IMG/VR virus record: IMGVR_UViG_3300037847_000880
Span: 1-23,603 of that record
Reading direction: 5' to 3' (one strand)
From: a virus
Length of the DNA: 23,603 bases
The notes below the pieces were generated by a model. It was not told the DNA's origin. It saw only the letters and a list, made by a program, of their open reading frames with translations, and searched no databases. Both the position numbers and the translations under genes were made by a program. Below are positions 5,062 to 8,456 of this stretch, in pieces (the stretch's first letter is position 1; every line of letters begins with the position of its first letter).

Positions 5062-5342
5062 TGCCAACTAGACTAAAAGACCCAAAAATCAAAGACCCTA
5101 CTAAGGGTATAAAGAAAAAACCAGTCACACCTAAAAAACAAATTAGAACACCATCTCATGGTGGTAAAAAAATGATGGGTGGTGGAACTATGAGAAAGCC
5201 AATGATGGCTAAAAGTGGTAAGTCCATAAAAATAAAAGGCTTAACACCTGCACAAAAAGGCAGCTTAAAAGCTGGTAAGGGTAAAAAAGGCGTGTCTTTA
5301 AAAGCTGGATTTAAAAAGTTGAGAAGAGGTGGTAAAGCCTAA
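5058..5342 (+). CDS. Small Lys/Gly-rich basic protein
   Basis: A 94-residue protein with 30 Lys/Arg, many Gly and Met, and almost no acidic or aromatic residues. It is likely disordered, except perhaps for the end, KGSLKAGKGKKGVSLKAGFK, which holds two copies of an SLKAG motif. ATG 5058 is preceded by AGGAGAAA, and a second ATG follows directly. Its composition recalls the basic tails of DNA-condensing proteins. It ends the run of basic proteins, and its stop overlaps the start of the tail-adaptor gene as TAATG. No named family is recognised. Confidence 0.62.
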   Translation: MMPTRLKDPKIKDPTKGIKKKPVTPKKQIRTPSHGGKKMMGGGTMRKPMMAKSGKSIKIKGLTPAQKGSLKAGKGKKGVSLKAGFKKLRRGGKA

Positions 5343-6007
5343 TGGCAACTTCAAACTCAAGAGATTTTGATTTAGACGTAGCGGAACTTATCGAAGAAGC
5401 CTATGAGAGATGTGGGTTGGAATTAAGAACTGGTTACGATGCTAGAACAGCTAGACGTTCTTTGAATCTTATGTTTGCTGATTGGGCAAATCGAGGTCTT
5501 AACTTATGGACTGTAACACAAGAAACAAAAGCAGTGACATCTGGTACAGCAGTCTATACATTAGATAGTGAGTTTGTAGATTTACTAGAAGTTGTATTAC
5601 GAAATAGCTCTGGTACAGATTTTACTCTTACACAAATGAGTCGTGGTGAGTATTTAAGAATACCAAACAAAGATAATAGTGGACAACCAAGTCAGTATTT
5701 CTTTGATAGACAGATCACTCCCACGATTACATTGTGGTCAACACCAGATACTTCTTACACATTGGTGTACTATTATGTAAGAAGAATTCAAGATGCAGAT
5801 ACTTTAGTCAATACAACTGATGCACCATTTAGGTTTTTACCATGTATGGCAGCTGGTTTAGCATATTATATATCAATGAAAAAAGCACCAGATAGAATAC
5901 AGATACTAAAAGCAGTCTATGAAGAGGAGTTTCAAAGAGCAGCTTCTGAGGACGCTAATAGCACGCCACTTAAACTAACACCGAATATATCATACTTGAG
6001 GTACTAA
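5342..6007 (+). CDS. Neck/tail adaptor, P22 gp4-like tail accessory factor
   Basis: A 221-residue protein. The N-terminal helical part (DLDVAELIEEAYERCG at 10-25, then TARRSLNLMFADWANRGLN) matches the pattern I know from podovirus tail accessory factor gp4 relatives, which attach under the portal and close the head. The central part is beta-rich (AVYTLDSEFVDLLEVVL, PTITLWSTPDTSYTLVYYYV). The C-terminal part is a helix around FRFLPCMAAGLAYYISMKKA, a region that packs against the portal in such adaptors. About 220 residues is within the family range (P22 gp4 is 166). GAGGTGG-type purines precede the TAATG junction. It is followed by two further neck genes. Confidence 0.75.
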   Translation: MATSNSRDFDLDVAELIEEAYERCGLELRTGYDARTARRSLNLMFADWANRGLNLWTVTQETKAVTSGTAVYTLDSEFVDLLEVVLRNSSGTDFTLTQMSRGEYLRIPNKDNSGQPSQYFFDRQITPTITLWSTPDTSYTLVYYYVRRIQDADTLVNTTDAPFRFLPCMAAGLAYYISMKKAPDRIQILKAVYEEEFQRAASEDANSTPLKLTPNISYLRY

Positions 6008-6324
6008 TGGCTAGGTACGCAAGTGGTAGAAAAGCATGGGGTTATTCAGATCGCTCTGGCTTTCGTTATCGTCTTCGTGAGATGAGAAAAGAATGGAATG
6101 GACTAAAGGTAGGTCCAGACGAGTATGAGGCTAAACACCCACAGTTAGAACCTAATTATCCAGGCCCAGATCCAACAGCATTATACGAACCAAGACCAAA
6201 TCAAGATACAGACTTGGTTTCATTTGTAGTATACACCAATGCTGGAGATGGTATAATAGGAAAGAAGTTAACAAATTTTACGGCTACAACTAGCCTCGGA
6301 ACGGTAACAGTGAGTATAACATGA
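6007..6324 (+). CDS. Small conserved neck-region protein
   Basis: A 105-residue protein. The first 47 residues (with GYSDRSGFRYRLREMRKEWN and VGPDEYEAKHPQL) are a module I recall from many marine tailed phages next to neck genes. It is rich in Arg, Tyr and Trp and of unknown function. A proline-rich linker (about 48-66) follows. The C-terminus carries TTSLGTVTVSIT, one copy of a beta motif that also appears in the genes at 8458 and 13725. TGAGGT just before the TAATG junction may serve as ribosome site. It overlaps the next gene by four bases (ATGA). A role in the neck is inferred from position. Confidence 0.7.
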   Translation: MARYASGRKAWGYSDRSGFRYRLREMRKEWNGLKVGPDEYEAKHPQLEPNYPGPDPTALYEPRPNQDTDLVSFVVYTNAGDGIIGKKLTNFTATTSLGTVTVSIT

Positions 6325-6968
6325 GCTTTACATTAACCACATTAACAGCATCAATAAAAGAATGGACTGAAAATGACGAGTCCACTTTTGTAGCAGAGAT
6401 ACCTTTCTTCATTACAAACGCAGAAGAGAGAATATTTAAATCTGTAGATTTAGATTATTTTAGAAAAAATGTTACTGGTTCTTTGACAAGTGGTAATAAA
6501 TTCTTAGAAAAGCCATCTGATTATTTAGCGACTCATTCATTATCATATGTGAACGCTAGTAGTGAAAATGTATTCTTACTACAAAAAGATGTAAATTTTA
6601 TTCAAGAATATACGGCAAATCCAGCTACAACTGGATCTCCTATTTATTATGCACAGTTTGATGTTGATACTTTTATAGTGGCTCCAACTCCTAGTAGTAG
6701 TTTTGCAGTAGAGCTTCACTATTATTACAGACCAGCTTCTCTTACCACAGATGACTCTGGAACAACATGGATCAGCACAAACGCACCAGATGCTCTTCTG
6801 TATGCTTCTCTTGTAGAGGCTTATACCTTTATGAAAGGCGAGGCAGATCTTATACAATTATATAACACAAGATATGCAGAAGCCTTGAGTAGACTCAAGA
6901 CATACGCAGAGGGTAGAAACTATTCTGACTCTTATAGAGATGGTTTGGTAAGAGTTCCTAAGTCTTGA
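6321..6968 (+). CDS. Phage adaptor protein (SU10-adaptor-like)
   Basis: A 215-residue protein with a helical N-terminus (LTASIKEWTENDESTFVAEI, then FITNAEERIFKSVDLDYFRK). A beta-rich middle (SYVNASSENVFLLQKDV, TFIVAPTPSSSFAVELHYYY) and a helical C-terminal part (DALLYASLVEAYTFMKGEAD, RYAEALSRLKTYAEGRNYSD) follow. This layout is that of the phage adaptor family found in SU10-type and marine podoviruses, which forms a ring between portal and tail. The gene follows the gp4-like gene, as expected of a two-part neck. Its stop codon lies inside the -35 element of the next promoter. Confidence 0.72.
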   Translation: MSFTLTTLTASIKEWTENDESTFVAEIPFFITNAEERIFKSVDLDYFRKNVTGSLTSGNKFLEKPSDYLATHSLSYVNASSENVFLLQKDVNFIQEYTANPATTGSPIYYAQFDVDTFIVAPTPSSSFAVELHYYYRPASLTTDDSGTTWISTNAPDALLYASLVEAYTFMKGEADLIQLYNTRYAEALSRLKTYAEGRNYSDSYRDGLVRVPKS

Positions 6969-6992
6969 CATTTATAAGATAAAATTTATAGT
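6965..6992 (+). promoter_or_regulatory. Sigma70-type promoter of the 7000-7719 gene
   Basis: A perfect -35 box TTGACA at 6965-6970 is followed after 16 bp by TATAGT (6987-6992), five of six -10 consensus bases. The expected transcription start falls at about 6999-7000, on the A of the ATG itself, so the transcript would be leaderless or nearly so. No Shine-Dalgarno sequence lies before this ATG. The -35 overlaps the stop codon of the adaptor gene. It is the only strong promoter pattern I found inside the structural gene run. Confidence 0.65.
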
Positions 6993-7000
6993 ATCTTATA
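6973..7000. repeat. Perfect 9-bp inverted repeat over promoter and start
   Basis: TATAAGATA (6973-6981) and TATCTTATA (6992-7000) are exact inverted copies separated by ten bases. The repeat spans the spacer, the last base of the -10 box and the first base of the ATG. It could be an operator for a dimeric regulator or, as RNA read from upstream, a hairpin that hides the start codon. It has no T-tract after it, so it is not a typical terminator. Confidence 0.75.
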
Positions 7001-7719
7001 TGAAGAAAAAAAGTATAGCGATTGTTGCTCTAGGCAACAGTTTTTCAGAATACATTTTAGCTAAAATACGAAGCGAAAAGTTTGATGAAGTATGGACTAT
7101 TAATTCCATGTCTGGTGTTATTTATCACGATAAATGTTTTATGATGGATCCACCATCAAGATTTCTTGATACGCCTAATGCGGGCAAACAAACAGATATC
7201 ATGCAAGATAGATTAACAAAAAAAATGGACATACCTATTTATTCTTGTACTTTAGATAAGAGATGTCCAGACGTAATAGAATATCCTTTACAAGAAGTTA
7301 TACATAAAAGTGGTTATGCCTATTTTAACAATACTGTGTCTTATGCCATTGCTTATGCAATTATACAAGATATTACAGATTTGCATTTATATGGAATAGA
7401 TTTCACACATAAAGATGTAGCTTTTGCAGAGGCTGGCAGAGCTTGTTGTGAGTTTTGGTTAGCCATAGCTATATCAAAAAAGATTAAAATACATATAGCT
7501 CATAGCTCTTCTTTACTTGATATGAATGTGCCAGATGATCAAAAACTCTATGGTTATCATAGATTAGATGATCCGCTTGTATCTACTGCAACAAACGGAA
7601 ATATGTTAATAACTAAAAAATCAAAACTAGAACCACCAGAACCACTAGACTCAAAGCCTAATTTAATAGGCAGAGAAGATATACCTGGAATTAGCTATGA
7701 GGAGAAAGAAAATGTTTAA
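7000..7719 (+). CDS. DUF115/MptE-like Rossmann-type protein of unknown function
   Basis: A 239-residue protein. It starts with a Rossmann-like strand and Gly/Ser loop (SIAIVALGNSFSEYIL, residues 5-20). TINSMSGVIYHDKCFMMDPP (33-52), YPLQEVIHKSGYAYFNNTVS (95-114), LYGIDFTH (130-137) and AGRACCEFWLAIA (145-157) follow. The pattern resembles proteins related to DUF115, MptE and sialyltransferase-like folds, in which the LYG-D-F strand end and the following helix shape the active site. It is widespread in marine phages as a hypothetical protein. It does not look like a virion part, and it interrupts the structural operon behind its own promoter. A role in sugar, nucleotide or surface modification is possible but not shown. 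The C-terminal 50 residues are a polar, proline-containing tail. ATG 7000 is the start because the strand begins directly after it. Confidence 0.7.
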   Translation: MKKKSIAIVALGNSFSEYILAKIRSEKFDEVWTINSMSGVIYHDKCFMMDPPSRFLDTPNAGKQTDIMQDRLTKKMDIPIYSCTLDKRCPDVIEYPLQEVIHKSGYAYFNNTVSYAIAYAIIQDITDLHLYGIDFTHKDVAFAEAGRACCEFWLAIAISKKIKIHIAHSSSLLDMNVPDDQKLYGYHRLDDPLVSTATNGNMLITKKSKLEPPEPLDSKPNLIGREDIPGISYEEKENV

Positions 7720-7999
7720 TGTAAGTTTTTCAGAAGTTGGTAGTGTAAATGTAAAAACTTCACAACAAGGAGGATTAACAAACGAGCAAATAGCTGATCT
7801 TGCTGTGGACAAAATAGCAAGTATATCAGATCAAGCACCTCCACACATAAGACAACAAGCAAAATTATTTAAAGAACAACTTAAAGGAATTATGTATCAT
7901 TATCTTATCTTGGCAAGAAGAGAGGAACGTGCTAATATTATCCAAGTCCTAAGATCAAGTGGTCAAAAGGAAACGGCTGAATATATAAGGAGACTCTAA
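7712..7999 (+). CDS. Small helical hypothetical protein
   Basis: A 95-residue protein. I chose ATG 7712 because AGGAG (7700-7704) lies seven bases before it. An in-frame ATG at 7697 would put the ribosome site inside the gene and add the unlikely start MRRKK. The first 20 residues are beta-like (MFNVSFSEVGSVNVKTS). The rest is helical, with a regular charged pattern (LTNEQIADLAVDKIASISDQ, PHIRQQAKLFKEQLKGIMYH, RREERANIIQVLRSSG). Similar small proteins occur next to the preceding gene type in marine phages. No domain is recognised. It overlaps the previous gene by eight bases. Confidence 0.68.
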   Translation: MFNVSFSEVGSVNVKTSQQGGLTNEQIADLAVDKIASISDQAPPHIRQQAKLFKEQLKGIMYHYLILARREERANIIQVLRSSGQKETAEYIRRL

Positions 8000-8000
8000 T

Positions 8001-8456
8001 ATGGCTATAGCACAAGCAATGTGTACTTCTTTCAAAACAGATTTATTGAACGCAGTACATAATTTTGCCACAAATGGTAACACATTTAAACTTGCATTAT
8101 ACGCAGAGGGAGGTGGCGGCAAGTCATCAACAACTGCAACTTTAGGTGCAACCACAACTGCTTTCACAACAACTGGAGAGATAGCGAACAGTGGATCATA
8201 TACATCTGGTGGAGGCACTTTAACAAAAGTTGCTCCGACTGCATCTGGCACAACTGCATTTACAGATTTTGCTGATTTAAGTTTTACAACTGCCACTATC
8301 ACTGCTATGGGTGCATTAATTTATAATGACACTGCATCTGGTAACAATGCAGTTTGTGTTTTAGATTTCACATCTAACAAAACATCAACATCTGGAACAT
8401 TTACTATTCAGTTTCCAACTGCTGATGCAAGTAATGCGATTATAAGGATAGCATAA
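8001..8456 (+). CDS. Putative virion structural protein (small, beta-rich)
   Basis: A 151-residue protein with AAGGAG at 7987-7992, eight bases before ATG. The N-terminus (MAIAQAMCTSFKTDLLNAVH) is helical and begins a conserved marine-phage protein type usually found near tail genes. The rest is Thr/Ser/Gly/Ala-rich with repeated beta segments (NTFKLALYAEGG, DFADLSFTTATITAMGALIY, TFTIQFPTAD) and a conserved IYND-type turn. It is likely a structural component of the tail or fibre base. No enzyme motif is visible. Confidence 0.68.
   Translation: MAIAQAMCTSFKTDLLNAVHNFATNGNTFKLALYAEGGGGKSSTTATLGATTTAFTTTGEIANSGSYTSGGGTLTKVAPTASGTTAFTDFADLSFTTATITAMGALIYNDTASGNNAVCVLDFTSNKTSTSGTFTIQFPTADASNAIIRIA

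Follow-up and report, generated by a model that had tools for sequence, protein, structure and literature searches.

A putative leaderless promoter, overlapped by a candidate operator, before an accessory gene of a pelagiphage-like virus

Phage morons are accessory genes that carry their own promoter inside late operons. A cellular operon with an architecture close to that of the locus reported here is the acuR operon of Rhodobacter sphaeroides, which has a leaderless start, a TTGATT/TATTAT promoter and an overlapping inverted-repeat operator, as established by 5' RACE and by mutation of both promoter and operator (PMC3017554). Leaderless mRNAs are common in alphaproteobacteria, with 375 in Caulobacter and 171 in Sinorhizobium (PMC4117421, PMC3616915). 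They also occur on mobile elements: the phage lambda cI mRNA made from PRM and the tetR mRNA of Tn1721 are leaderless (summarised in PMC3017554, PMC9031893). A literature search for leaderless genes of Pelagibacter, or for morons that start without a leader, returned nothing direct.

The DNA analysed here (the window, 23,603 nucleotides) is a 23.6-kb virus record with a tailed-phage structural module. The capsid protein shares 70% identity with its counterpart in Pelagibacter phage HTVC023P and 66% with that of HTVC027P, and the nearest cultured relatives of the virus are the HTVC023P-type pelagiphages, reportedly more abundant in the ocean than any other pelagiphage group (PMC12753301). Judged by these similarities the window virus is pelagiphage-like, with the host taken from its relatives only. 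A comparison of gene order showed that in HTVC023P and HTVC027P the adaptor gene is followed directly by the phrog_644 relative with nothing between them; the two genes at 7000-7999 of the window are therefore an insert and, like a moron, they separate genes that adjoin in close relatives (Table 1). The insert has a promoter of its own, and no terminator-like site was found at 7700-8010. A strong intrinsic-terminator-like hairpin (10 pairs, 6 of them G-C, then a T-run) lies at 2748-2771, just 3' of the capsid gene (1816-2727). Two genes, 5342-6007 and 6321-6968, have matches to the SU10 adaptor family PF24175 and may be a tandem duplication. No known RNA family was found in the window.

Table 1. 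Positions of the genes and proposed control elements around the insert.
Feature	Position	Strand	Basis
SU10-type adaptor (head-tail) gene	6321..6968	+	PF24175 4.7e-27; phrog_2941
-35 hexamer TTGACA	6965..6970	+	read directly; 43 related loci, chosen by this feature, have TTGAC equally far from ATG
Left arm TATAAGATA, proposed operator half-site	6973..6981	+	in promoter spacer, about -27 to -19
-10 hexamer TATAGT	6987..6992	+	read directly; TATANT in 21/22 distinct upstream versions
Right arm TATCTTATA, proposed second half-site	6992..7000	+	about -8 to +1; overlaps last -10 base and A of ATG
Predicted transcription start, A of start codon	7000..7000	+	invariant 7-nt -10-to-ATG gap, pyrimidine before ATG, no ribosome site
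Accessory gene, 239 aa	7000..7719	+	matches no family; model is Rossmann-like, similar to GT42 sialyltransferases and MptE/Maf
Second insert gene, 100 aa, function unassigned	7697..7999	+	overlaps first insert gene
Downstream gene, phrog_644	8001..8456	+	51% and 49% identity to HTVC023P / HTVC027P relatives

The original prediction described TTGACA and TATAGT separated by 16 bp, ATG 7000 with no ribosome site before it, and a perfect inverted repeat with 9-bp arms, and direct reading of the DNA confirmed all of these. The adaptor gene upstream ends in a TGA (6966-6968) that falls within the -35 hexamer, the spacer is 16 nt, the start codon occupies 7000-7002, and no purine-rich ribosome site precedes it. 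The left arm, TATAAGATA at 6973-6981, is the exact reverse complement of the right arm, TATCTTATA at 6992-7000, with N10 between them. Although 6965-6992 is the top promoter match (11/12) in the first 12 kb of the window, dinucleotide shuffles of the 38% G+C window gave 1.19 promoters of 11/12 quality against the one observed. Similarly, 3 perfect 9-bp inverted repeats with loops of 3-20 were observed and 2.96 were expected from the shuffled window. Each taken alone, the promoter and the palindrome are therefore at chance level in this A+T-rich window. Conservation of both in close relatives had been named beforehand as a test; both passed it, and it is this conservation which shows that they are not chance.

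We collected relatives by gene, by start-region patterns, by a free-spacing promoter pattern and by adaptor; the related loci are on uncultured contigs, many of them short. TTGAC lay upstream of the start codon at a distance of exactly 35 bases in 43 of 148 distinct readable upstream regions. This class is defined by its -35, so the invariance of that element is by construction, but the -10 (TATANT in 21 of the 22 distinct versions) played no part in choosing the 43 loci. When the spacing was left free (14-21 and 2-16 bases allowed), every match before the accessory gene had 17 and 7; matches with other spacings belonged to unrelated genes and were rejected. Within the promoter class the distance from the upstream stop to the ATG is either 31 or 36 while TTGAC-17-hexamer-7-ATG is constant, and the fixed point is therefore the start codon. 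A geometry anchored on the start codon in this way is what a leaderless promoter requires.

Eighteen viral contigs carry the full cassette, every time directly before the accessory gene and in one copy per record, while a reversed control pattern gave none. It was not found on any contig from bacterial genomes, the promoter was never seen after adaptors with a different gene downstream, and a search for leaderless promoters of the same form elsewhere in the cassette-bearing genomes gave only two isolated matches.

The base before the ATG is T or C in all 43 promoter-class loci compared to 12 of 71 promoterless relatives, as would be expected if the RNA starts on that A. The start codon itself is ATG in 43 of 43, GTG starts occurring among the promoterless relatives, and no ribosome site was seen across the promoter class. 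Together, the fixed 7-nt gap, the invariant pyrimidine and the missing ribosome site strongly suggest a leaderless start of the accessory gene, and the leaderless promoter is well supported by these comparisons; we consider it probable. The exact first base is less certain. The suggestion that transcription starts on the A of the ATG is supported by the fixed gap and the pyrimidine rule. Counted from the -10, this A is base 8, one past the textbook +1 (T6999); such a distance is not unusual, and a pyrimidine comes before the A. A start at A6998, giving a 2-nt leader, would also be possible. A7000 is thus our predicted start from sequence geometry only.

The left arm of the palindrome is under a constraint of its own. 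On the adaptor tree the left arm showed 0 changes in 9 columns compared to 26 in the 8 other spacer columns, and the right-arm columns outside the -10 showed 4 changes in 7. These counts come from 26 CTTGAC-lineage rows (12 distinct 36-mers) that had not been found by the palindrome pattern. For the left arm, a column-wise Fisher test on variable columns gave p = 4e-5, a value that ignores relatedness, although both sides are drawn from the same rows. A second lineage, with a 36-nt gap, has kept the promoter and has no palindrome; RNA polymerase therefore has no need of these spacer letters. L123/L136, a natural promoter-down variant, has its -10 degraded to CTACAT and both arms intact. As the left arm is unchanged beside a changing spacer and the arms are intact in L123/L136, something besides the hexamers must hold the left arm. 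The dyad thus overlaps the core promoter and is conserved beyond the -35 and -10 hexamers, as an operator dyad would be. No T-run follows it on either strand, and it was rejected as a terminator.

How might the dyad act? The original prediction proposed an RNA switch in which the arms pair in late read-through RNA and hide the start codon, while RNA from the gene's own promoter, which would not include the left arm, is translated. The arms are able to pair (-5.6 kcal/mol for the hairpin alone), and folding predictions leave the start codon unpaired with a probability of 0.43 in read-through RNA, 0.71 for the promoterless relatives and 0.98 in RNA beginning at the ATG. However, the hairpin is weak (z -1.8 alone and -0.5 in 91 nt), its stem includes only the A of the ATG, and the value of 0.98 for RNA from the ATG is identical across all classes, so the contrast is generic and these figures neither exclude nor favour a switch. 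A ribosome terminating at the upstream stop (6966-6968) would moreover cover the left arm. The substitutions of the palindrome lineage, all confined to the right arm, also argue against pairing: A6993G leaves a G-U pair whereas T6997C and T6996C break pairs, A-to-C mismatches are fixed in two right-arm variants, and no pair has changed on both sides. In a wider set 3 pairs have, a count reached in 133 of 500 shuffles. With a promoter lineage that has no palindrome at all, the switch is not supported and we regard it as improbable. On the other hand, the dyad spans about -27 to +1, the position expected for a dimeric repressor, and its arm centres are separated by 19 bp. The left arm would never be part of the leaderless RNA, and its absolute conservation is no less consistent with a DNA-binding site than with an RNA stem. 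A putative DNA operator, to which we give roughly even odds, is therefore more likely than a read-through RNA switch.

The reading that we prefer, with a probability of about 0.5, is a leaderless promoter of the sigma-70 type, used by the host RNA polymerase, combined with the operator of a dimeric repressor. The promoter would serve a moron-like accessory gene placed after the adaptor, and its RNA would begin on the A of ATG 7000 or no more than two bases from it. Translation would proceed from the 5' AUG without a ribosome site and, given how numerous leaderless mRNAs are in Caulobacter and Sinorhizobium, an alphaproteobacterial host could carry it out. The TATAAGATA-N10-TATCTTATA dyad, from the spacer to the start point, would be bound by a phage- or host-encoded repressor that blocks RNA polymerase until relieved. 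What the comparisons show directly is the sequence itself, its conservation, the invariant spacing, the missing ribosome site and the constrained left arm; from these we infer the use of the promoter, the 5' end, the existence of a binding protein and the sign of regulation.

One other possibility is that the promoter is leaderless and the dyad has no regulatory partner, being kept by common descent and the recent spread of the cassette. It is consistent with this that the dyad is present in a single copy per genome and absent from the 36-nt-gap promoter lineage, and that the cassette has moved between adaptor backgrounds, so that some copies are recent. The same rows, however, have accumulated the 26 changes in the neighbouring spacer and none in the left arm, which recency does not explain, and we consider this account rather unlikely. 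It could also be speculated that the promoter itself is fortuitous or decayed, and that expression of the gene depends solely on late read-through, ribosomes reinitiating once they have passed the adaptor stop. A match of such consensus quality is expected once per window by chance, the majority of relatives are promoterless, and the -10 is degraded in L123; yet a fortuitous promoter would not be expected to keep its spacing constant and to have TATANT in 21 of the 22 versions, the pyrimidine rule and the lack of a ribosome site, all in the promoter class only. This explanation is as improbable as the RNA switch, and a repressible leaderless promoter remains the reading we favour.

Among the 10 records searched for a repressor, many of them incomplete, there was no firm candidate. 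Ribbon-helix-helix matches below cut-off were obtained in 2 of the 10 records, both of them cassette-bearing. One is a small RHH-like protein in a cassette-bearing genome (L309:5860-6063; RHH_5, E 6.8e-5, below the curated cut-off), a candidate regulator that we offer as a lead only. The full dyad occurs once per genome, and allowing up to 3 mismatches added isolated matches only; no regulon or auto-operator therefore supports the operator. Phage RNA polymerase (PF00940) gave no match in 10 records, nor did it in the control genomes. HTVC027P is described as lytic with early genes of unknown function, and the study in question (PMC12753301) lists RNA polymerase as specific to its other phage, which fits the use of the host polymerase.

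Most relatives of the accessory gene have no promoter. In these the start codon overlaps the upstream stop (TTGATGA) or follows a GGTAG-like site (AAGGTAGNNNN-ATG). The promoter label changes 8 times on the adaptor tree and 16 times on the tree of the downstream (accessory) gene, compared to about 33 times for shuffled labels, and genes 94-97% identical to the accessory gene of the window were found in all three contexts. From these trees and near-identical genes, the cassette goes mainly with the upstream gene, downstream alleles being exchanged at this boundary. In L101, L103 and L125 the relatives of the accessory gene follow another gene rather than the adaptor; the gene therefore also moves within genomes. 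In L087 (minus strand, near 8177-8211) the greater part of the first third of the accessory gene is missing without a change of frame, MKKKSI being joined to EYPLQEV, and the cassette is intact. Tentatively, a portable leaderless promoter-operator cassette may turn a coupled, read-through late gene into an independently repressed leaderless one. Pelagiphage relatives would exchange this cassette through recombination at the gene boundary, which would give one gene three interchangeable start modes; we think this broader scenario possible but doubtful.

The 239-aa product has no significant match in Pfam, PHROG or NCBIfam, and a search for relatives of its gene in bacterial genomes gave two distant MAG matches, both without the cassette. 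Its predicted model (mean pLDDT 71, C-terminus unreliable) matched CstII in Foldseek (E 1.3e-4), and VIA-align gave Z 9-11 to MptE-type HPPK, Maf and Cst-I/II over residues 1-175. By these model matches the product has a predicted GT42/MptE-like Rossmann fold; from the fold only, a glycosyltransferase-like role is a suggestion.

If our reading is correct, it provides a concrete leaderless promoter and operator in the HTVC023P-type group, whose gene control is little known. The relatives would form a natural series in which one gene is started in three ways, by its own leaderless promoter, by stop/start coupling or from a GGTAG-like ribosome site. It would also suggest that the expression of an enzyme modifying the cell surface or the virion is separate from that of the late operon and could, for example, be early.

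The locus resembles phage morons in that it is an insert between conserved virion genes, has its own promoter and is absent from relatives; it differs in that no terminator was seen after the insert, the relatives of the virus are described as lytic, and most relatives of the gene are promoterless. With lambda cI and Tn1721 tetR it shares a phage or mobile-element gene, a 5'-terminal AUG and a repressor-controlled promoter (putative in the window). Those two genes, however, encode repressors and lie in regulatory regions, whereas the window gene lies in a structural module and is unlike a repressor. The likeness to the acuR-acuI-dddL operon, controlled by the TetR-type repressor AcuR, extends to the alphaproteobacterial setting, a transcript beginning at the AUG and the absence of a ribosome site. 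Its inverted repeat, TAATAGAC-n6-GTCTATTA, overlaps the promoter like the dyad of the window, although the latter has 9-bp arms and a 10-bp loop. The first gene of the acuR operon encodes the repressor and its operator was proven by mutation; in the window, a putative operator would control a glycosyltransferase-like accessory gene of a phage.
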